A stretch of 54,300 nucleotides of DNA, taken from a virus. The DNA is taken from positions 1 through 54,300 of IMG/VR virus record IMGVR_UViG_3300047462_000784; one strand, given 5' to 3'. The position numbers and the translations under genes were made by a program. This document shows positions 36,572 to 45,069 of the stretch, in pieces. The notes below the pieces were generated by a model, which saw only the letters and a list, made by a program, of their open reading frames with translations, was not told the DNA's origin and did not search any database. Numbering within the stretch: the stretch's first letter is position 1; every line of letters begins with the position of its first letter.

Positions 36572-36775
36572 GAGGGGATGCATTCCCAATGCTCCCCTCT
36601 CTCTTTAGAGACAAACGCCGGGAACCCGGGAACCCGCGCCAATGCTGGGTTTGCGCCTTCCCGGCAGGGTGTTGGGAACGATATGGCCGGGAACGCAGAA
36701 AACCCGCATGGGTGCTGGCTCCAATCGTTCCCGGACATGAGTCGTTCCCGGCGGGAATCCGGGAAGGCGGGAACG
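36572..36775. repeat. structured repeat element A (GGGAACG words around a conserved core)
   Basis: Order on the plus strand. H1: GAGGGGA...TCCCCTC hairpin (36572-36599), 12 pairs with one bulged base. H2: TCTC-TTTA-GAGA (36600-36611). Then words GGGAAC at 36620, 36628, 36674 and 36689, the core at 36695-36719, inverted words CGTTCCC at 36726 and 36743, and direct words at 36753, 36760 and 36769. CCGGGAACG (36687-36695) and CGTTCCCGG (36726-36734) pair perfectly, putting the core in the loop. The core shares 20 of 25 bases with element B. It lies 3' of the HNH gene and 5' of the small terminase. It is not a CRISPR: word spacing is irregular and there are no spacers. Confidence 0.75.
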
Positions 36776-36903
36776 ATTGTGCTGACCGGTATTTGCCAGC
36801 GGAAGGAATATTCCATGCAAGCTGAACGCGCAAGGCAACTCCGAAAAGCGGATCCTCCCGCCAAGCACTCACTGACCCTCATGCACCAACAATACGTTCG
36901 TAT

Positions 36904-37284
36904 TTAGCGCGCACGCCGCGCATTGCCAAAGCCGCCATCGTGTTTTGCGGTAAGGAGGGAATGGCAGGATGCACAGGTGGGAGCCAAATTGGATCGTTCA
37001 TTGTTATGGCTGTCGCCATCGACGTGATCGACCACCGAGGCCGGCGTGACCACGCCTTGTCGTTGGCATTCCCGGCACAGCGGCTCATCAAACAGCACTT
37101 GTGCCCGTAGCGCCCGCCATGCCGCGCTGTTGGTCGGCAAGGCACGGCTTTGCTGCCGTTGCCGTTTGCGTGCCGGGTTGTCCCACTGACGGCGATCTGC
37201 GCGATGCGCCTGGCAATAACCCGGCGTGTCCAGCACGGCGGCACAGCCGGGATGTCGGCACGGAGTTAGGGCAGAGCGGGGCAT
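36904..37284 (-). CDS. HNH endonuclease (packaging-associated type)
   Basis: 126 residues. An N-terminal zinc site (CRHPGCAAVLDTPGYCQAH) is followed by a basic region (RKRQRQQSRALPTNSAAWRA). LCRECQRQGVVTPASVVDHV and HNNERSNLAPTCASCHSLLT carry the HNH motif. Known: HNH proteins of this class beside small terminases are needed for specific packaging in HK97-like phages. Ends GGFGNARRAR, typical of the family. Confidence 0.92.
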   Translation of the reverse strand: MPRSALTPCRHPGCAAVLDTPGYCQAHRADRRQWDNPARKRQRQQSRALPTNSAAWRALRAQVLFDEPLCRECQRQGVVTPASVVDHVDGDSHNNERSNLAPTCASCHSLLTAKHDGGFGNARRAR

Positions 37285-37337
37285 GTGTTGATTTTACCGC
37301 GATCTAGTCGCAACTTTTTACAAAAATCATCGATTAC

Positions 37338-37424
37338 GTACTTGGCTTTTGATCGGAATGAAGCGTTCATGTCGTTGTCGCGATTGGCGACGCAACCAGA
37401 CCAAGCCGAGGAGAAACAGCATGA
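37338..37424 (+). pseudogene. degraded copy of a small SVH-motif gene
   Basis: The frame reads VLGF-stop-SE-stop-SVHVVVAIGDATRPSR and ends with TGA overlapping the next ATG. GTACTTGGCTTTT (37338-37350) and AGCGTTCATG, with the same 11-base spacing, recur at 52395-52428. The stretch 37360-37398 matches 38564-38602 at 36 of 39 bases. Two in-frame TGA codons show it is broken. GTTGTCGC...GCGA.GCAAC can form a small hairpin in the two close copies. Confidence 0.6.
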
Positions 37425-37666
37425 CCAGAGACAGCAACGAGATCGCCCAACACGCCAAGGACTACCTGCGTGGATTCGGATCAACCGGCAACAACGCATT
37501 GCAGCAACTCGCCGCCTTCAAGGACTGGCAGCGAATCGCGCAGCAAGAACTGGAACGCCGCGCCTGCCGCGTGATCGGGTGTTTCGACGATGACATCCTG
37601 CAAGCGATTGCGTCCGGTCAGATCGACCTCCCGGCGCTGGCCAACGAAGTGGCCGCAACCAAGTAA
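37421..37666 (+). CDS. hypothetical protein of the accessory plus-strand cluster
   Basis: 81 residues from ATG at 37421 with GAGGAG upstream. Mostly α-helical and polar: NEIAQHAKDYLRGFGSTGNN, LQQLAAFKDWQRIAQQELER, ending DLPALANEVAATK. Not recognised. The ATG overlaps the stop of the degraded SVH frame. A CCCCGCC-AACC-GGCGGGG hairpin (37677-37694) lies between it and the next gene. Confidence 0.7.
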   Translation: MTRDSNEIAQHAKDYLRGFGSTGNNALQQLAAFKDWQRIAQQELERRACRVIGCFDDDILQAIASGQIDLPALANEVAATK

Positions 37667-37721
37667 AGCAATTCACCCCCGCCAACCGGCGGGGATCATC
37701 CAACCTTAAGGAAACAGAACC

Positions 37722-38231
37722 ATGACTACCACGATCAAACTCACCGATACCCAACGCACCGTATTGCTGCAAGCAGCAGAACGTCCCGACGGCAACATCG
37801 AACCTCTGCCACCGCAACTGAAAGGCGGTGCGCGCCAGAAGGTGATCGACGGCTTACTGAGTCGCGACCTCGCCAAGAAAAAGCGCAAGGACATTGTGAT
37901 CACAGACGCGGGCTACGCAGCGGTCGGTTGCAGTCGCCCACAAGCGGCAACACCAACCGATCCCGCGCTGGACGCCGCAGTCACGGCGGTCGAGGCAACG
38001 TGGCAAGGCGATGGCCAGCCTCGAGACAAGAGCAAACAGACGCAAGTGATCGCCATGCTGAAACGTCCGGAAGGCGCGACGATCGCGCAGATCGTTGAGG
38101 TCACTGGCTGGCAGGCGCACACGGTGCGCGGCACATTCGCCGGTGCGTTCAAAAAGAAACTCAAGCTCGACATCACCTCCACCAAGGAGCCCGGCGCCGA
38201 TCGCGTCTACACGATCAGCACAGGAGCATAA
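37722..38231 (+). CDS. DUF3489-domain protein
   Basis: 169 residues. N-terminal helix-turn-helix-like half (KLTDTQRTVLLQAAERPDGN, GLLSRDLAKKKRKDIVITDA) and a C-terminal half with KQTQVIAMLKRPEGATIAQI, TGWQAHTVRGTFAGAFKKKL and GADRVYTIS, the DUF3489 signature. AAGGAA precedes ATG. Known: DUF3489 genes commonly travel with DUF2924 and a serine recombinase; in this window those two lie 14 kb away at the right edge. DNA binding is likely, but its target is unknown. Confidence 0.85.
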   Translation: MTTTIKLTDTQRTVLLQAAERPDGNIEPLPPQLKGGARQKVIDGLLSRDLAKKKRKDIVITDAGYAAVGCSRPQAATPTDPALDAAVTAVEATWQGDGQPRDKSKQTQVIAMLKRPEGATIAQIVEVTGWQAHTVRGTFAGAFKKKLKLDITSTKEPGADRVYTISTGA

Positions 38232-38233
38232 GC

Positions 38234-38512
38234 ATGGCGGACGACTTATTTGCGGGAATCGCGCTCAACCGCTTCGAGACCGTTCGCTTCTGCGAGGGAG
38301 CGGATGGGCGATTTCGGCTGATGTGGCAAATCAACATCCCGACCGCGCTGTTTGCCGGTCAGTGGTTCGACTACGGCCTCACCGTGTTGCGGTTGGCCGA
38401 CGACGAACAGCAACGTTACACCTTCATCGCACCGCGCCAGCTGATCAAGCTGCGGTTTTACGAATCGGCGATCGATGCCATGCATGCGGCCATCGACGCG
38501 TTGCCGAAATAG
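38234..38512 (+). CDS. hypothetical protein following DUF3489
   Basis: 92 residues starting two bases after the DUF3489 stop, so co-translated. Compact α/β pattern (FETVRFCEGADGRFRLMWQI, FDYGLTVLRLADDEQQRYTF, ESAIDAMHAAIDALPK). No domain recognised. Belongs to the plus-strand accessory cluster between two minus-strand phage modules. Confidence 0.68.
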   Translation: MADDLFAGIALNRFETVRFCEGADGRFRLMWQINIPTALFAGQWFDYGLTVLRLADDEQQRYTFIAPRQLIKLRFYESAIDAMHAAIDALPK

Positions 38513-38520
38513 TGGCGAAC

Positions 38521-38622
38521 ATGCGCGACATCCATCAATCATCGCTTGATGTTTCCTGTGAACGAAGCGTTCATGTGGTTGTCGCGATGAGCGACGCAAC
38601 CATCAAGGAAACTGAAAAATGA
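38521..38622 (+). CDS. small SVH-motif protein
   Basis: 33 residues, MRDIHQSSLDVSCERSVHVV and a short tail. LDVSCERSVH aligns with LGFSGDQSVH at the end of the protein at 52248, and its DNA nearly repeats 37360-37398. Stop overlaps the next start (ATGA), as in the other two copies. No ribosome site is obvious. Could be a truncated member whose main effect is translational coupling. Confidence 0.5.
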   Translation: MRDIHQSSLDVSCERSVHVVVAMSDATIKETEK

Positions 38623-38969
38623 CCATCACTATTGAACGCACACCTCGCACGCTGACCGTCTGCGGCAACACCATCCAGGTCGAGGAGCTCGGCCTGCGCC
38701 TGCCATTCTCCCGCAAGCCTGCCGATCTCAGCGAGGTCGGCGGATCGGGAAGCTACCGCGTCTTCGTCACCGAAACGCGGGAGATGAGCGCGATTGAATT
38801 CGATGCATTTGCCGCGCAATTATTATTGTCGCGCGAATGGTTGAGCGGCAAAGGCGGTTATGCCGAGGACGGCAGGCTGTGTGTCGAAATCAGCGCGCCG
38901 GGCCGGCCCATCCTGCTCGTGGATCCGTCAGGCAGCGACTACGCCCGTTACGTCGCACGTCTAGGCTGA
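38619..38969 (+). CDS. hypothetical protein of the accessory cluster
   Basis: 116 residues. MTITIERTPRTLTVCGNTIQ, VFVTETREMSAIEFDAFAAQ and a C-terminal EISAPGRPILLVDPSGSDYA form a mixed α/β protein without a recognised domain. The start overlaps the SVH frame. Its end overlaps the minus-strand methylase by nine bases (convergent), which suggests a cassette joined tightly to the phage gene. Confidence 0.68.
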   Translation: MTITIERTPRTLTVCGNTIQVEELGLRLPFSRKPADLSEVGGSGSYRVFVTETREMSAIEFDAFAAQLLLSREWLSGKGGYAEDGRLCVEISAPGRPILLVDPSGSDYARYVARLG

Positions 38970-40232
38970 AGCGACGATACCGGCAACCATATCGAATTCC
39001 AACCCGTCGGACTGACGGGTTGCTTTCTTGCCGCTCCATTCCTGCCAACGCTTGACGATCACGTCCACGTATTTCGGATCGAGTTCCATCAGGCGCGCAT
39101 GACGCCCGGTTTTTTCGGCGGCGATCAGGGTGCTGCCGGATCCGCCGAAGCAGTCCAGCACGGTGTTGCCGGGGCGGCTTGAATTGCGGATGGCACGCTC
39201 GACCAGTTCGACCGGCTTCATGGTCGGATGCAGGTCGTTTTTCTGCGGCTTCTTGACGTTCCAGACGTCGCTCTGGTCGCGGTCGCCGCACCAGTGGTGC
39301 TTCGCGCCATCGCGCCAGCCATACAGAATCGGCTCGTATTGCCGTTGGTAATCGGAGCGGCCGAGCGTGAATGTGTTCTTGGCCCAGATGATGAAGGTGG
39401 ACCACTTGCCGCCTGCGGCGCGGAAGGCCGTTTGCAACGCGTCGAGTTCGGAGGAACTCATTGCGATGTAGATTGCGCCGTCGCAGCGTGTCACGGCAGG
39501 CGCCAGCGCCGCAAGCAGGAAGCCGCCAAAAGCGTCGCCCAGATTGTCGTTCATGATGGCGCGGTTTTTGCCGCGCAGCTTGTCCTTGGCGCTGTTGGCA
39601 TAGTCGACATTGTAGGGAGGGTCTTGCCAGATCATGTCGACATGCGATTCGCCCAGCAGGGCATCGTAGCTCTCGGGCGCGGTCGCGTCTCCGCACAGCA
39701 GGCGGTGATTGCCGAGGATCCACACATCGCCGGAAACAGACACCGGGGTTTCGGCAACGCCCGGCACGTCGTTCTCGTCGGTCATTCCTGCGTTTTCTGG
39801 CTCGCCGCCGTTGATCAGTGCATCCCATTCGTCAGACGAAAAGCCGGTCAATCCCAGGTCGAATCCTCCGTCCTGCAATTCGGCCAGTTCAAGACCAAGC
39901 AGTTCGTTATCCCAGGTGGCGTTCTCGCCGATCTTGTTGTCAGCCAGGATCAGGGCCTTGCGCTGGATTTCGGTCAGATGCGTCATCGGCACCACAGGCA
40001 CTTCGCTCATGCCGAGCTTGCGTGCGGCGAGTAGACGACCGTGGCCGGCAATGACATTGTCTTCGCCATCGATCAGTATCGGCGCACCCCAGCCGAATTC
40101 GACGATGCTGGCGGCAATTTGCGCTACCTGTGCGTCGGAGTGTTGCTTGGCATTTTTGGCATACGGGATCAGGGCATCGACCGGCCGCAGCACAATCTGG
40201 ATGTCGGCAATGGACGAACGCAATTCAGGCAT
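38961..40232 (-). CDS. DNA methylase with N-terminal ParB-like domain
   Basis: 423 residues from ATG at 40232. Residues 10-110 are a ParB/Srx-type domain (PYAKNAKQHSDAQVAQIAAS, APILIDGEDNVIAGHGRLLA). The catalytic motif IWQDPPYNVDY is near 200 and the SAM motif DCFGGSGSTLIAA near 360, the β-class order of N6-adenine/N4-cytosine methylases. Known: phage versions protect DNA; the ParB-like part may bind nucleotide or DNA. A terminator hairpin sits directly upstream. Together with the C5 enzyme the phage carries two DNA methylases. Confidence 0.93.
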   Translation of the reverse strand: MPELRSSIADIQIVLRPVDALIPYAKNAKQHSDAQVAQIAASIVEFGWGAPILIDGEDNVIAGHGRLLAARKLGMSEVPVVPMTHLTEIQRKALILADNKIGENATWDNELLGLELAELQDGGFDLGLTGFSSDEWDALINGGEPENAGMTDENDVPGVAETPVSVSGDVWILGNHRLLCGDATAPESYDALLGESHVDMIWQDPPYNVDYANSAKDKLRGKNRAIMNDNLGDAFGGFLLAALAPAVTRCDGAIYIAMSSSELDALQTAFRAAGGKWSTFIIWAKNTFTLGRSDYQRQYEPILYGWRDGAKHHWCGDRDQSDVWNVKKPQKNDLHPTMKPVELVERAIRNSSRPGNTVLDCFGGSGSTLIAAEKTGRHARLMELDPKYVDVIVKRWQEWSGKKATRQSDGLEFDMVAGIVASA

Positions 40233-40243
40233 GGGGTCCGGGA

Positions 40244-40283
40244 AATAAAAAACCCGCGAGAAGCAATGCTCGTCGCGGGCTGT
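40244..40283 (-). terminator. terminator upstream of ParB-methylase
   Basis: Minus strand CCCGCGA-C-GAGCA-TT-GCT-T-CTCGCGGG followed by TTTTTTATTTCC. Long interrupted G:C stem and six U, between the DUF6362-like gene and the methylase. Confidence 0.78.
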
Positions 40284-40440
40284 TGAATGTGGTTTGGTGT
40301 GAGATTCAGCAGAGATTCTGTTGAGATACAGCTTTCGCAACCATAGCCGAAATAATAGACCAATTTTCCTGAAACGCGTCACGCCATGTTGATCCCACTT
40401 TCCGCAATTGCCCTCATGCGCCAGCATTGACGCGCAGAGA

Positions 40441-40839
40441 TCATCCACTTCCAGCAATCTCTCTTGGCTGATTGAGCCGCTTGCAGAGCACCGACAGGGC
40501 GGATTGCCAGCGGCGTTGTGCGGTGCTGACCGAACAGGCATTGCGTTTGGCGATGTCTGACCATGGATAGCGCTGGGCTCGCATCCACACCAGATGCCGC
40601 TGCTCCTGCTCGAGCCACTGCATCCAGTTCATCGTCTCCAGCATGCGGTCGACGGCTTTCGGATCCGGCGGGAATCGCCGGGGTGGGGGATCGTCGCCTG
40701 CCATGCGTTCGTATTCGGTGCGCACAAATAGCGGCCAGACGTTGTAGTAACCCTGCACGCGGACGGGTGGCAGGCGGCGGGCAATCTGGTCGGCGTCGGT
40801 AAGCCGTTCGGCCACTGCTTCGATGGTCCAGTCAGTCAT
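40441..40839 (-). CDS. HTH-containing phage regulator (DUF6362-like)
   Basis: 132 residues from ATG at 40839. The first half (TDWTIEAVAERLTDADQIAR, PPVRVQGYYNVWPLFVR) and the C-terminal helix-turn-helix (RYPWSDIAKRNACSVSTAQR) match small phage proteins known as DUF6362. Last gene of the early operon before the terminator, in the place often taken by a late-transcription activator. That role is an inference from position. Confidence 0.8.
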   Translation of the reverse strand: MTDWTIEAVAERLTDADQIARRLPPVRVQGYYNVWPLFVRTEYERMAGDDPPPRRFPPDPKAVDRMLETMNWMQWLEQEQRHLVWMRAQRYPWSDIAKRNACSVSTAQRRWQSALSVLCKRLNQPREIAGSG

Positions 40840-41047
40840 GCTGCCCTCCGTTGCCAGCCAAGCCATACAGCCGCTGGCCCAGACGGCGCACGAATTCCCG
40901 TTCGACGAAATCGAGGCGCTCGTCGGTCTCCGACACCACCAGAATGCGCTGATCACGCCAGCCGCTTTGCTTGATCGCGTCCAGATCGGTGGACTGCGCA
41001 AGTTGCCGATCCAGCGGACAGCGGTAGGATTGTTTGGGGATTTTCAT
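40832..41047 (-). CDS. small conserved phage protein
   Basis: 71 residues: KIPKQSYRCPLDRQLAQSTD, LDAIKQSGWRDQRILVVSET and LDFVEREFVRRLGQRLYG. I recognise this as a common small protein next to RuvC-like and DUF6362-like genes in Burkholderiales-type phages; function unknown. Overlaps both neighbours (ATGA upstream, eight bases downstream), so it is part of a tightly coupled set. Confidence 0.78.
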   Translation of the reverse strand: MKIPKQSYRCPLDRQLAQSTDLDAIKQSGWRDQRILVVSETDERLDFVEREFVRRLGQRLYGLAGNGGQHD

Positions 41048-41517
41048 GTGAGTTCCTCCTGTGTATCGATGGCCCAGTGCAGCAGCGCCAGCGCATCGGC
41101 TTCGTTGTCGTCGGCCGGTGTGTAGCCTTTCCGTTGCATGGTCGCGATCATGTCGTCCTTGCCCGCATTGCCCTTGCCGGTCGCGTGCTTCTTGATCGTG
41201 CCTACCGGTATGCCCTGATACGGGATGTTGTGGTGTTCGCACCAGGCGGTGAGATGCGCCATGAAGCCACCATAGGCATGGGCAGCGTCGACGCCCGCGT
41301 GATTGCGTACCTCTTCGAAATACACGACGTTGATGCCGTCAACCGATTGCTTGACTTCGGTGAGCCAGCGCTTGAACCGCAGGAAGCGCATGCCGCCACC
41401 TTCGAAGCGTTGGGGTTTGAACGATTGCGTGCCACTGGTGATGCCGTTGTCGCGTGTGCGGACAGCCCATCCGGTGGTCGTGCCCAGATCAAGTGCGAGG
41501 ATAGTGAGTTTAGTCAT
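41044..41517 (-). CDS. RuvC-like Holliday-junction resolvase
   Basis: 157 residues. RNase H fold acidic residues: Asp10 (ILALDLGTTTGWA), Glu68/Glu69 (VVYFEEV) and Asp137/Asp141 (ADDNEADALALLHWAI). GTIKKHATGKGNAGKDDM is the basic segment typical of phage RuvC-like resolvases. Known: resolves branched DNA during replication and packaging. Overlaps the preceding gene by eight bases. Confidence 0.9.
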   Translation of the reverse strand: MTKLTILALDLGTTTGWAVRTRDNGITSGTQSFKPQRFEGGGMRFLRFKRWLTEVKQSVDGINVVYFEEVRNHAGVDAAHAYGGFMAHLTAWCEHHNIPYQGIPVGTIKKHATGKGNAGKDDMIATMQRKGYTPADDNEADALALLHWAIDTQEELT

Positions 41518-41806
41518 GACGTTTCCCTTTTGACGGCTGCGCTGCGATCAGGATGCGTTGACCACGCACCCGCTTGCCGCCTTTCCTGTGCAGTTCGCAA
41601 CGGCGATTGACGTGCGTGATCGTATGGCCGGTCGTAAAGATGAAAGACGCTCCACAGTCGGGGCAATGACTGCGCCAGTTCAGCAGCGTTGTCATAAAAC
41701 CGTCCTGGCGGCGATGGGAGCGAACTTCGTCCAACCGATAGGGCTGACCGTTGACCAAAAATGCGGTACCGATTTCCGGTGGCATGGCAAACTTGATGGG
41801 TGTCAT
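41510..41806 (-). CDS. small zinc-binding phage protein
   Basis: 98 residues from ATG at 41806. A Cys-x2-Cys (SHCPDCGASFIF) followed by CELHRKGGKR makes a probable zinc finger; the C-terminus is basic. Not recognised by name. It directly follows repeat element B and overlaps the RuvC-like gene, so its message leader would include the element's hairpins. Confidence 0.7.
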   Translation of the reverse strand: MTPIKFAMPPEIGTAFLVNGQPYRLDEVRSHRRQDGFMTTLLNWRSHCPDCGASFIFTTGHTITHVNRRCELHRKGGKRVRGQRILIAAQPSKGKRHD

Positions 41807-41845
41807 GCTGCAACCTCCATCCGGCATGCCAAACGCCTACGAACC

Positions 41846-42085
41846 GAGAGAGAGTGTGAGCCCCGCGCTAGCGGGGTCTCACTCTCTCTCCCTTTAGGGA
41901 GAGGTGAACTACTGGATTCTGGAACAGGCTGCAAACCCGCATGGAGTCTGGCCTTTTCCAGAATCCACAGAATCCAGCCCAGAATCCGCCGGATTCTGGA
42001 ATCTGAGCCAAGTGCCTGATTTGATTGGGTTTGGCTGTCTGGACAGAATCCAGAATCCACGGATTCTAGAAAGGCTGGATTCTGG
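41846..42085. repeat. structured repeat element B (GGATTCTGG words around a conserved core)
   Basis: Plus strand. H1: very long hairpin (41846-41890), GAGAGAGAGT.GTGAG-CCCCGC with loop GCTA and its complement. H2: CTCTCCC-TTTA-GGGAGAG (41886-41903), sharing bases with H1 so that the two compete. Word GGATTCTGG at 41914, core 41928-41952, inverted CCAGAATCC-type words at 41958, 41968 and 41979, a direct word at 41991, inverted words at 42044 and 42051, and direct words at 42061 and 42077. TGGATTCTGG (41913-41922) pairs perfectly with CCAGAATCCA (41958-41967), placing the core in the loop as in element A. It lies 3' of the primase-helicase and 5' of a zinc protein. Confidence 0.75.
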
Positions 42086-42097
42086 ATTTCGGTGAAA

Positions 42098-44314
42098 TCA
42101 TGCATAGGTGTCATCGTTTTCATGCTCCTTTTCTTCATCGTTGTGTTCGTCCTGGTATATCCAGACGCTGGGGTTTTCAACCGGCAGTACTGCGCCGCTC
42201 TGGCGGCATTTGTAATGGGTAGGCAAGACAGGCACCTGGGCCTCGTGAATCTCGCCTGTGTCGGGGTCGGGCGGCCCTGTTGGCCGCAACAGCGACATGC
42301 CTTCCACGCACAGGTAGCCGAACTTGCTGCGCGTCGGCGCCGTCAGCCCGTAATCGCGCGGATTCTGGAAAAACTTCACATAGCCCTTGGTGGCGAGCAC
42401 GCCGATGCGCTCGGCAACCGTTGAGCGGCCACCCAGGCCTGCCTGATTCTCGAAGCTTTCCGCGAACTGGACGACCGTGTAGGCACGCCCCTTCTGCGCT
42501 TCGTCGAACAGCATCTGCAGGATCACGTCGTGCTTGCGCCGGCGTTCTGCATCGAGCTTGTCGCCATAGTCCTGCTTCACCAGGCGTTCGACGTTCGGAT
42601 CCTGCTCGCACCACGCGCCGGTAACCTTGTCGACATGCTTGGTCGGAATACCCGGGCCATTGCGCAGCTCGAAAATCAGCTGGCGCGTTGTCCGGCTTTC
42701 GTCGGGGCGGAACAGCAGCATCCCCGTGGTGTAATACCCGCGCAGGCTACCGGCACCAGCGAGCGCCTGGAACGGATCTTCCTCAAACTGTTTCTTCGAT
42801 AGTTTTTTGGTGTGGTGGGCGAGGATGATCCCCGCTTCGGGATTGACGGCGTCGCGCAAGCGCTCGACGCGCTGCGACAGGAAGTACAGCATCGCGGCGT
42901 TGTCGTTCTCGCCGCCTTCACCGCCGCCGTCGAACACGTTGCGGATCGGATCAATCACGATGATGTCCGGCTTCCCACCGCCGAAGGCGTTAGCGATCGC
43001 CGGTATGATCTGCTGCAGGCCATGGTCGTCGAGCACCATGCGCAACTGCGACGTGACCATCAGATTGCGGCGGGCCTCCAGCATGCGCGATGCCGGCAGC
43101 CTGATGTCGCGCATCCGCTCGCGCAGATAGTGGTATTGCACCTCTGCCTGCAGGTAAAACACGCGCAGCGGACGCGGCGGCCGCATGCCAAGAAACGGTG
43201 CACCGGCCGCCATGTGGGCCAGCCAGGACAATAGGAAATCGCTCTTGCCGACCTTGGGAGCACCGCCGAACACCAGCATGCCGCCCGGCGTGAGCACGCG
43301 CGGGTGGATGATGTCGTCAGGAATCGGGCTGAGATCGTCCAGCATCGCGCCGAGCGAAAACACTGGCAGCGAGGCAGGCGCGGCCTTGATCGTTGCGCGC
43401 TCACCCGTTGCGATGAATGCATGGCAATCGAATCCGTCGGCGATCGCATCCGCCGCATCCCACTTTTCCGGCATGGCGTCGGGCGGCAGCAGGATCGAGA
43501 CCGACAGCGCGCCGGCAGCCACGATGGCCTGGGCCGCAGCTTCGGCATAATCCCAGCCTGGGCCATCCTTGTCCGGCCAGATCAGCACATGCTTGTTGCG
43601 CAGCGGCGACCAGTCGGTTTTGTCGACCGGCGCCTTGGCCCCATTCATCGCCGTCGTCGCGCAGATGCCTGATCCGATCAATGCCTGCGCACACTTTTCG
43701 CCTTCGGCCAGCACGACGGTTGTCGACTTGACGACCGCCGGCAGGTTGTAGAGCGGGCGCGGATCGGGCGTGCGCCAGGCGCGGGCACGGACATCCCATG
43801 GCCTGAATTCCTTGCCGGTCGGCGGGTCGTAGCGATAGACGCAGGCGATCAGCTCGCCGTTGGCCGTGGTGTAGTTCCACTTCGCCGTGTAGGGGCCGAG
43901 CTCATCGATGGCCGGACTGCGGGTATCGGTCCGGAGTATCGGCGCGGTCGGACGCATACCCAGCCACTGACCAATCTCGGTCGCGACAGCAGGAAAATCC
44001 CTCTCGATCGAATAGCCCCGGATTCTTGCCCACAGGTCGAACAGGTCGCCGCCCTCGCCAGAGGCAAAATCCTTCCACAGCCCGGTATGCTCGCCGACCA
44101 GTTCCACCACGAGACTCTTGCCGGGATTGCCGTCAGTGTCGCCGACATAGAATTTTCCGCCGCGCACCCGACCCTGCGGCAACAGATAATGCAAAACCGC
44201 ATCGATGCCTGCCAGCAGCCCATGCCGCAATGCAGCCGTGTCCTCCCGCTGCATGCGCGGTTTGAGCTGGCCGCCAGCATCGTTGAAATCGAACCAGTCG
44301 ACGCGATCGGTCAT
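42098..44314 (-). CDS. primase-helicase (TOPRIM + RepA/RecA-like)
   Basis: 738 residues from ATG at 44314. A TOPRIM-like part near 200-250 (VVLAEGEKCAQALIG, LIWPDKDGPGWDYAEAA) precedes a RecA-like helicase: Walker A VFGGAPKVGKSDFLLSW near 350 and Walker B IIVIDPIRNVFDGGG near 455. A C-terminal winged-helix-like region follows. This matches phage replication proteins that combine primase and RepA-type helicase. Its stop is 12 bases before the repeat element B array. Start overlaps the nuclease gene by ATGA. Confidence 0.9.
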   Translation of the reverse strand: MTDRVDWFDFNDAGGQLKPRMQREDTAALRHGLLAGIDAVLHYLLPQGRVRGGKFYVGDTDGNPGKSLVVELVGEHTGLWKDFASGEGGDLFDLWARIRGYSIERDFPAVATEIGQWLGMRPTAPILRTDTRSPAIDELGPYTAKWNYTTANGELIACVYRYDPPTGKEFRPWDVRARAWRTPDPRPLYNLPAVVKSTTVVLAEGEKCAQALIGSGICATTAMNGAKAPVDKTDWSPLRNKHVLIWPDKDGPGWDYAEAAAQAIVAAGALSVSILLPPDAMPEKWDAADAIADGFDCHAFIATGERATIKAAPASLPVFSLGAMLDDLSPIPDDIIHPRVLTPGGMLVFGGAPKVGKSDFLLSWLAHMAAGAPFLGMRPPRPLRVFYLQAEVQYHYLRERMRDIRLPASRMLEARRNLMVTSQLRMVLDDHGLQQIIPAIANAFGGGKPDIIVIDPIRNVFDGGGEGGENDNAAMLYFLSQRVERLRDAVNPEAGIILAHHTKKLSKKQFEEDPFQALAGAGSLRGYYTTGMLLFRPDESRTTRQLIFELRNGPGIPTKHVDKVTGAWCEQDPNVERLVKQDYGDKLDAERRRKHDVILQMLFDEAQKGRAYTVVQFAESFENQAGLGGRSTVAERIGVLATKGYVKFFQNPRDYGLTAPTRSKFGYLCVEGMSLLRPTGPPDPDTGEIHEAQVPVLPTHYKCRQSGAVLPVENPSVWIYQDEHNDEEKEHENDDTYA

Positions 44315-45069
44315 GCCTGTTTGCTCCAGCAGCGTCCGTGCCAGTTGCACCAGCGGCATTCGTAGTGGGATGAGTCATGCGCGATGCGCGGCAGCAGTTC
44401 GCCGGCATCGGTGGCTTGCAGGATCTGCACCGCACGGTCGGATCCACGTTGCGCCAGCGCAGCGTCAAACGGCACCAGCTCGAAATACAGTTCCTGCGTA
44501 TCCTTGTTGATTGCAGTGAACAGCGCCGGGTGCGCCGAGATGCCCGGCACTGCCGGTTCCATGTACGCCTGGTAAATCGCGATCTGGGTCGCATAGACGG
44601 GTTTTGACAGGGCCACGCCGCGCTTCACGCAATCGCGCCAGTTCTTGTCGTTCATCGTCTTGCATTCCCAGAGCGCCGGGTAGAGCATGCCGAGCGCCAC
44701 TGGGCCGGCTGCGAGGATGCCGTCGACGTGGCCGCGCACCCGTCCACGGGCAACGGAGAATCCGAACTGGTCGCCACCTTGCCTGCGGGTGTAGATTTCA
44801 AATCCGGCCAGCCGCAGCCAGCGGATCGCGAGATCCTCCAGCGTATGGCCAACCTCGAAAATGCGCAGCGTGCGCCCGGGGAGTTCACGATCCGGATCGA
44901 CCGGCGCCTGCACAAACTCGTATTGCAATGCCCGCGCGCAGGCGACGCCCAGGCGCGATGCGCCGAGGTAGGCGCGCGCCGTCTGCAAATCGCGCTCGGC
45001 CTGCAGCGCAGCGTCCAGTACGGCGGAGACGCGCTCGTGAAATTTTGGTTGGGAGTTATAGTCCAGCAT
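44311..45069 (-). CDS. Cas4/RecB-like Fe-S exonuclease
   Basis: 252 residues from ATG at 45069. The PD-(D/E)XK core has GHVDGILA near 112 and WECKTMNDKNW near 131. Four cysteines in the AddB/Cas4 arrangement, Cys44 ... Cys238-x2-Cys241-x5-Cys247, should hold a 4Fe-4S cluster. Known: such phage nucleases resect DNA ends for recombination. No CRISPR array or cas genes are in the window, so it works with the Sak4/SSB set. Shares one base with the upstream stop (TGATG). Confidence 0.88.
   Translation of the reverse strand: MLDYNSQPKFHERVSAVLDAALQAERDLQTARAYLGASRLGVACARALQYEFVQAPVDPDRELPGRTLRIFEVGHTLEDLAIRWLRLAGFEIYTRRQGGDQFGFSVARGRVRGHVDGILAAGPVALGMLYPALWECKTMNDKNWRDCVKRGVALSKPVYATQIAIYQAYMEPAVPGISAHPALFTAINKDTQELYFELVPFDAALAQRGSDRAVQILQATDAGELLPRIAHDSSHYECRWCNWHGRCWSKQA

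Follow-up and report, generated by a model that had tools for sequence, protein, structure and literature searches.

Within the window, by which we mean the whole 54,300-nucleotide stretch of viral DNA analysed here, two non-coding elements each lie 3' of a minus-strand gene, as the first-pass annotation had placed them. Element 1 follows an HNH gene and has no initiator gene alongside, and element 2 follows a primase-helicase gene (Rep) whose stop codon is about 160 bp away. The GC skew of the window showed no clear switch at either element. The features are listed below, with cores scored against the 23-bp family consensus, RAACCCGCATGRWTRCTGGSTTT.

36617–36778, unstranded: word array of element 1, CCGGGAACG / CGTTCCCGG, proposed iterons
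36630–36652, plus strand: second, diverged core of element 1, GAACCCGCGCCAATGCTGGGTTT, 20/23, flanked by CCGGGAAC and TTCCCGG words
36700–36722, plus strand: core of element 1, 20/23, with exact AAACCCGCATGGNNNCTGGC
41846–41903, unstranded: H1 and H2 hairpins adjoining element 2, not a family-wide feature
41912–42088, unstranded: word array of element 2, GGATTCTGG / CCAGAATCC, proposed iterons, with 8 exact 8-mer copies in both orientations
41933–41955, plus strand: core of element 2, 20/23, with exact AAACCCGCATGGNNNCTGGC
42098–44359, minus strand: primase-helicase, AAA_25, PHROG DNA primase/helicase (Pfam PF13481, 5e-23; phrog_239, 5e-68), proposed initiator of element 2
42200–42577, minus strand: predicted C-terminal winged helix of the primase-helicase (from a model), containing a word-class-specific segment, proposed word-binding domain

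The claimed likeness of the two 25-base cores (36695–36719 and 41928–41952) was borne out, with 20 of 25 bases identical and both AAACCCGCATGG and CTGGC invariant. No score above 18 of 23 arose in ten shuffled windows, against 20 for all three window cores. One core per element had been proposed, which describes element 2, with its one clear core; element 1 has two in direct orientation, that at 36630–36652 having been missed. The words are element-specific, as had also been claimed: exact copies of CCGGGAAC number five in element 1, none in element 2 and three in the rest of the 54 kb, and exact copies of GGATTCTG number eight in element 2, none in element 1 and four elsewhere. The words nearest the core are complementary in both elements; perfect pairing over 9 and 10 bp had been described, and the 9 bp of element 1 (CCGGGAACG/CGTTCCCGG) stand, while element 2 (TGGATTCTGGAA/TTCCAGAATCCA) pairs over 12 bp. 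The observation of two elements with a common core and different words is thus confirmed.

The helicase domain of Rep (residues 362–557) resembles RSF1010 RepA (profile A1 versus 1g8y/1nlf/1olo, E 2e-7), and its primase part matches phage DNA primase PHROGs. Models of the protein had a mean pLDDT of 58 at full length (poor) and 78 for the C-terminal domain alone, for which structure matches were weak (E > 0.1) and included many winged-helix regulators.

A core family beside primase and helicase genes

The family core is an interrupted inverted repeat, AAACCC-GCATGRWTRCT-GGSTTT, its internal conservation inflated by the search pattern, and often occurs as two copies about 145–170 bp apart in either direct or inverted arrangement. 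The exact 17-base core pattern is present in 104 viral stretches, and the core was found in hundreds of phage contigs, in D3-like phages and in Chaseviridae, in the last within a long gap after the RNA polymerase gene, amid TTGTGACAATATTG words. It is rare in sampled host genomes; Clostridial matches of the genome scan, several of which have identical flanks, were set aside. When the whole elements were searched against phages by nucleotide BLAST, no match was obtained beyond the core and a few bases. A 7-mer repeated at least five times within 200 bp on each side accompanies 31% of viral core matches versus 2.1% of positions drawn at random from that DNA; a decoy-motif control of 6 sites was too small for use. 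No published description of the core was found in open-licence papers.

Word-rich elements show a marked position relative to long genes. After deduplication, the 3' end of an ORF of at least 450 amino acids faces the element within 450 bp in 24 of 57 cases (control intergenic points, 12%), and the 5' end of such an ORF lies within that distance in 2 of 57 (control, 11%). In 31 of the 57 this Rep arrangement was not seen, some contigs ending early and the automatic ORF choice sometimes falling on an antisense frame. The facing ORFs represent at least six unrelated primase/helicase types: PriCT_2 with DUF5906, VapE-like, Toprim with DUF927, DUF927 with HTH_56 (Cch), AAA_25 with PrimPol or Toprim, DUF3631, and DnaG-type zinc ribbon with Toprim. 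The first-pass annotation had proposed a functional non-coding family in which the core is constant and the words vary, situated close to phage replication genes and frequent in Burkholderiales, and had predicted that new members would not keep the words; both proposals held. Its H2 hairpin with a TTTA loop is not a family trait, as among 107 word-rich core copies (window included) 4 have any such hairpin with a 6-bp stem.

The core also recurs on plasmids. In a 4.07-kb MOBQ plasmid of the pIGWZ12 kind, iterons and a DnaA box accompany it at a position 385 bp upstream of rep; in a Massilia plasmid it sits among repeats between rep and parAB, and in IncFIB it lies 375 bp 3' of the repB gene. 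The origin of pIGWZ12 is reported to precede rep and to contain both iterons and DnaA boxes (PMC6856555). Three kinds of motif, DnaA-like, IHF-like and ATATATA, are overrepresented in the elements: IHF-like sites occur in 31 of 227 (3.7 expected), TTATNCACA in 10 (2.6 expected) and ATATATA in 32 (9.6 expected), the IHF and DnaA expectations coming from a simple first-order shuffle.

Word classes, Rep proteins and pairing across the core

In the DUF5906 family, pairs of Reps with the same word and pairs with different words (L294 left aside in the latter) have the same mean identity, 49%, in the N-terminal primase; for the helicase the respective means are 81% and 50%, and for the last 100 amino acids 69% and 40%. 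The two identity ranges overlap in the N-terminal part only. Two members with the same word, L062 and L349, are 87–100% alike in the C-terminal half and 14–23% in the aligned N-terminal half. By these comparisons, the word appears to track the helicase/DNA-binding half of Rep, not the primase half. Within the AAA_25 family, L323 has the GGATTCTGG word in common with the window, together with the segment GGRSTVAERIGVLATKGYVK, in place of which the AGTTGGC group carries GG[ED]RTIR[ED]R[LI]SAL[AS]TQGYIK. This segment falls within the winged helix predicted by the model, and the two groups also differ outside it, less strongly. Most of this correlation comes from two families with two word classes each, and physical linkage of the 3' end of the gene to the origin could produce it without binding.

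Some copies weigh against an origin role by their position: those of D3-like phages and Nankokuvirus lie within a small-gene cluster, those in RaK2 between structural genes and those in Methylospira between IS66 genes. The scattered occurrence, with its IS66 and structural settings, would suit a palindromic repeat of the selfish kind, inserting in the vicinity of replication genes and having no role in replication. We regard this as very improbable, because the core occupies the same place beside unrelated Rep genes, words and Rep change together, and host genomes rarely contain it.

If instead the words were operators, bound by a repressor or a late-gene regulator of the phage, and the core a host-protein site that controls the boundary of replication and late genes, no initiation would occur at the elements. 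Regulators also use inverted words, and the DUF5906-class element lies between the Rep gene and a terminase-containing operon, which speaks for this explanation. It is nevertheless unlikely, since the words follow the helicase half of Rep, DnaA-like and ATATATA motifs are enriched, and plasmids carry the core next to replication genes without phage regulators.

The words, which differ from phage to phage, are spaced by about 8–12 bp and inverted around the core. An inverted match of at least 8 nt across the core (25-nt flanks) is found in 39% of word-rich elements, versus 2% for a direct match and 1% in swapped controls, and with 30-nt flanks the folding energy of word-rich elements has a z of about −13. 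The flanking words had been taken as covariation-type evidence for a fold, and the pairing across the core is real. However, the words are multi-copy and also repeated in direct orientation, which makes the element an array as well as a stem, and inverted iterons explain most of the pairing. Because the pairing arms lie at different registers among elements, the flanks are not meaningfully alignable, and pairing was tested by permutation. Immediately next to the core, the excess of pairing is modest for all matches (z about −4) and falls short of significance for word-rich elements when the shortest flanks are used; covariation in columns −3 to −1 is slight. A covarying inner extension of the hairpin (CTG/CAG, CGC/GCG) failed for word-rich elements.

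A structured RNA, in which the core is the loop of a regulatory or antisense RNA and the word-built stems are conserved as pairing alone, would account for the folding energy and for arms that pair far above swapped controls. Against it stand the direct copies of the words at their regular spacing, the varying stem registers and the presence of the core at plasmid origins. Moreover, the core is oriented with the Rep gene in 12 cases and opposite to it in 12, which counts against an RNA transcribed from the Rep operon, and no Rfam family reached its gathering score within the window. We therefore consider a structured RNA quite unlikely. The suggestion that short dubious proteins starting Met-Arg-Val are translations of the core is consistent with the minus-strand ATG, which reads MRV in 107 of 107 word-rich core copies, but it is not evidence for a gene; the frame then stays open for anywhere from 3 to at least 70 codons.

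Proposed replication origins and the role of the core

We consider it likely that each element is an origin of DNA replication composed of iterons for an adjacent Rep helicase and a conserved core that may be recognised by the host. The iteron part of this reading is well supported by sequence comparison. The C-terminal half of the phage's own primase-helicase would bind the words as double-stranded iterons, the initiator gene usually ending within a few hundred bp of the element. The oppositely oriented iterons flanking the core may then load the helicase there and open the duplex. Less certainly, the core would act as an ssi-like hairpin read by a host factor common to beta- and gammaproteobacteria, perhaps a priming or primosome factor; a host-read core would explain the use of a single core by replicons whose helicases are unrelated. 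Element 2 of the window would be the origin cognate to the helicase encoded at 42098–44359, and element 1 a second, orphan copy with other words.

We infer that the core is probably hairpin-forming, host-recognised and ssi-like, the single-strand hairpin role resting on modest energy evidence. Within the origin reading, the core may alternatively work in double-stranded form, as a site for a host protein with an initiating or architectural function. Its AAACCC/GGSTTT arms are conserved in sequence rather than covarying, and IHF-like and DnaA-like sites are enriched nearby. Yet the inverted repeat is extended in some members, reaching 10 bp in Methylospira (GCTGAAACCCGCATGAATGCTGGGTTTCAGC), flank pairing over all matches exceeds permutation, and a search of open-licence papers gave no known host site with the core sequence. 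A double-stranded site is accordingly the less probable role, though one to be taken seriously.

Several known systems share parts of this arrangement. In the origins of SaPI Rep and SCC Cch/Cch2, the iterons lie immediately downstream of the initiator helicase gene and are bound by the C-terminal domain of that helicase (PMC7581432). Element 2 likewise has short, element-specific iterons directly 3' of the initiator helicase gene, and one member of the present family, L239, bears a Cch-type HTH_56 domain. Unlike those systems, the present family has proteobacterial hosts and an invariant 23-bp core across unrelated helicase types and plasmids, which is absent from the published accounts consulted. 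The RSF1010 (IncQ) origin works with the RepA helicase and the RepB' primase and has an ssi hairpin on each strand (PMC4434180). Similarities are the RepA-like hexameric helicase domain of the window Rep and the combination of iterons with short hairpin elements, often two per origin; in contrast, the primase part was annotated by similarity to phage DNA primase PHROGs, not RepB', and the present cores, compared with the RSF1010 ssi by description, are paired in direct or inverted arrangement. Small plasmid origins of the pIGRK/pHW126 and pIGWZ12-like kinds have annotated ssi or iterons (PMC6854812, PMC6856555); there, too, iterons and DnaA boxes adjoin rep, and the pIGWZ12-like plasmid has the same core.

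The phiX174/ColE1 and G4-type DnaG origins, as single-strand hairpins near origins that engage host priming proteins, offer a hypothesis for the core. Its sequence differs from the n'-type primosome assembly sites compared, the top score being 13/23 for the phiX174 stretch and 17/23 for ColE1, and from the G4-type DnaG origin, with 16/23 at most over the whole of G4 and alpha3. No connection with AAGCGG primosome sites was supported, this motif being unenriched near cores (47 observed versus 47.9 expected).

To our knowledge, replication origins have yet to be mapped in most temperate phages that fall outside the well-studied groups. If the origin reading is true, putative origins in many phages of beta- and gammaproteobacteria, and in some plasmids, would be located by one short motif, and the binding site of the initiator would be given by the words beside that motif. 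More tentatively, the core may be an undescribed and widely used single-strand initiation or host-recognised module, with proteobacterial phages and plasmids that have unrelated helicases changing only the iterons and the matching half of the helicase. Origin specificity would then be swappable among replicons that keep the same core, which raises the question of which host factor reads a core kept by replicons with SF3-like, RecA-like and MCM-like helicases.

Cores and words in the window

According to the first-pass annotation, elements 1 and 2 have matching cores (36695-36719 and 41928-41952) set among unlike words, the short element-specific repeats that we propose to be iterons. Sequence comparison bore this out, with 20 of 25 core bases identical. 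A family consensus derived later, from other phages (RAACCCGCATGRWTRCTGGSTTT), matched the window three times, whereas ten shuffled windows gave a maximum of at most 18. Element 1 therefore contains two cores.

Core copies in the window, scored against RAACCCGCATGRWTRCTGGSTTT
36630-36652, core copy in element 1, 20/23
36700-36722, core copy in element 1, 20/23
41933-41955, core copy in element 2, 20/23

The word CCGGGAAC occurs in five exact copies in element 1 and three beyond both elements in the 54 kb window, and GGATTCTG in eight in element 2 and four outside. Element 1 (36572-36776) is flanked by an HNH gene and a small terminase gene, and its words are unrelated to those of element 2, whose proposed initiator is the window Rep (42098..44359, minus strand). 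For element 1 no initiator gene of its own was identified, nor does one adjoin it; this element may represent a second origin or a relic one.

Spread of the core

The exact pattern AAACCCGCATGGNNNCTGGC was found in 104 IMG/VR stretches, and the slightly narrower AAACCCGCATGGNNDCTGGC had at least 117 matches in GTDB genomes, with Burkholderiales in many of the titles listed; related core patterns gave at least 120, 39 and 45 matches. Since many matches are due to chance or coding DNA, especially in GTDB, words were scored around each core as a 7-mer repeated at least five times, 200 bp on each side. This score was reached by 31% of viral core matches, 11% of GTDB matches and 2.1% of random positions. 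The words vary by phage (AACAGGGTTAAC, ACCCTGCA, AGGTTGG, AGTTGGC, GTCCCAC, CGTAAGA, CCGGACCATGA, GTTCTAA and others) and are frequently spaced 8–12 bp apart. A second core, direct or inverted, commonly lies 145–170 bp from the first. Five stretches (L009, L018, L027, L046, L079) have alternating GC/AC tracts between paired cores, such as GCACGCACATACACG and GCGCATGTGTGCGCGCGG; in another (L336, 11569-11844), three cores follow one another at 128-bp distances in nearly identical contexts, and GTTCTAA occurs 14–17 times within 200 bp.

Named phages with the core include PAJU2, D3, YMC11/02/R656, the Chaseviridae phages phiEcoM-GJ1, Y2 and SKA49, as well as RaK2. Whole-genome scans, two of the five centred on a genome already known to carry a match, found the core in 7/250 genomes of Janthinobacterium's order and in 1/229, 0/240, 2/246 and 3/249 of four other groups; a reversed control pattern had no match in these scans. 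The core, rare in whole genomes, looks like a mobile-element motif rather than a housekeeping site. A search of open-licence papers found no description of the core string or of conserved phage origin hairpins.

Genomic position and putative origin signals

An ORF of at least 450 aa faced the core within 450 bp with its 3' end in 24 of 57 word-rich elements and with its 5' end in 2, compared with 12% and 11% at random intergenic points; 31 of the 57 fell outside the Rep criterion. The facing genes, where scanned, are mostly primase-helicases of unrelated kinds, and core orientation relative to them is even (12:12). A 4.07-kb MOBQ plasmid has the core between its mobC and rep genes, adjoining iterons and a DnaA box (most of this query was covered by 429 plasmid records, many of ~4.07 kb). 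The core is located between rep and parAB amid GTCCCTG...CTCACC repeats on a Massilia plasmid, 375 bp 3' of repB in IncFIB, and in the long non-coding gap following the RNA polymerase gene in Chaseviridae. Within 200 bp of the core in 227 elements, IHF-like sites (31 elements versus 3.7 expected), TTATNCACA (10 versus 2.6) and ATATATA (32 versus 9.6) were enriched. Gene position, plasmid contexts, the Chaseviridae gap and the enriched motifs together point to replication origins.

Cores without evident origin context occur in D3-like phages, Nankokuvirus, RaK2 and an IS66 copy. In the D3-like phages and Nankokuvirus Ab03 (L224, L225, L421, L434, L436, L437), the core precedes a 147-bp ORF by ~100 bp as a recurring pair. 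Klebsiella jumbo phage RaK2 (L433) has core-like sites at two places, one of them (2501-2521) intergenic among structural genes.

Proposed Rep specificity and possible role of the core

The words nearest the core on opposite sides are inverted: an inverted match of at least 8 nt, within 25 nt, was present in 39% of word-rich elements, versus 2% for direct matches and 1% for swapped controls. Among DUF5906 Reps, same-word pairs share 49% N-terminal (17–83) and 81% helicase identity (70–97), and different-word pairs (L294 left out) 49% (17–67) and 50% (49–51). The Reps of stretches L062 and L349, which have a common word, match near-completely in the C-terminal half, and their aligned N-terminal halves are 14–23% identical. 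Among AAA_25 Reps, those of the window and of L323 have the same word and the same GGRSTVAERIGVLATKGYVK segment, and the AGTTGGC group has another segment there, conserved within the group; this region of the window Rep is a winged helix in a structure model, with weak structure matches. On the best account, the C-terminal half of Rep would bind the word, much as SaPI Rep and SCC Cch2 bind iterons through their C-terminal domain (PMC7581432). The main alternative is that the correlation arises because the 3' end of the gene is physically linked to the origin.

The core itself is an interrupted inverted repeat, with arms AAACCC and GGSTTT around a conserved 11-base centre. The search patterns fix most positions, so that conservation is informative only at the unfixed ones: 95% of 74 elements have T at position 13, while position 14 is mostly A or G and positions 20–22 are mostly T. 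Extra pairing beyond the arms is modest: flank pairing gave z of about −4 across all 240 distinct matches and, at the shortest flank length, was not significant in the word-rich elements; covariation in columns −3 to −1 is low. A perfect 10-bp stem is present in some members; one such core, GCTGAAACCCGCATGAATGCTGGGTTTCAGC, is flanked by IS66 genes on a plasmid of Methylospira (L426, 3001-3031). The H1 and H2 hairpins beside the window elements are a local feature: a 6-bp stem with an H2-type loop is present at just 4 of 107 word-rich copies of the core, counting the window. In sequence comparison, the core differed from the priming regions of phiX174, ColE1 and G4/alpha3.

Because the core is common to phages with unrelated helicases and to several plasmids, we infer that a host factor would read it. 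We prefer an ssi-like priming hairpin as its form; a double-stranded protein site for the host reader is the main alternative. The RSF1010 scheme of iterons, helicase and ssi (PMC4434180) offers a sensible analogy for the window, since the helicase domain of the window Rep matches RSF1010 RepA; no membership is claimed.
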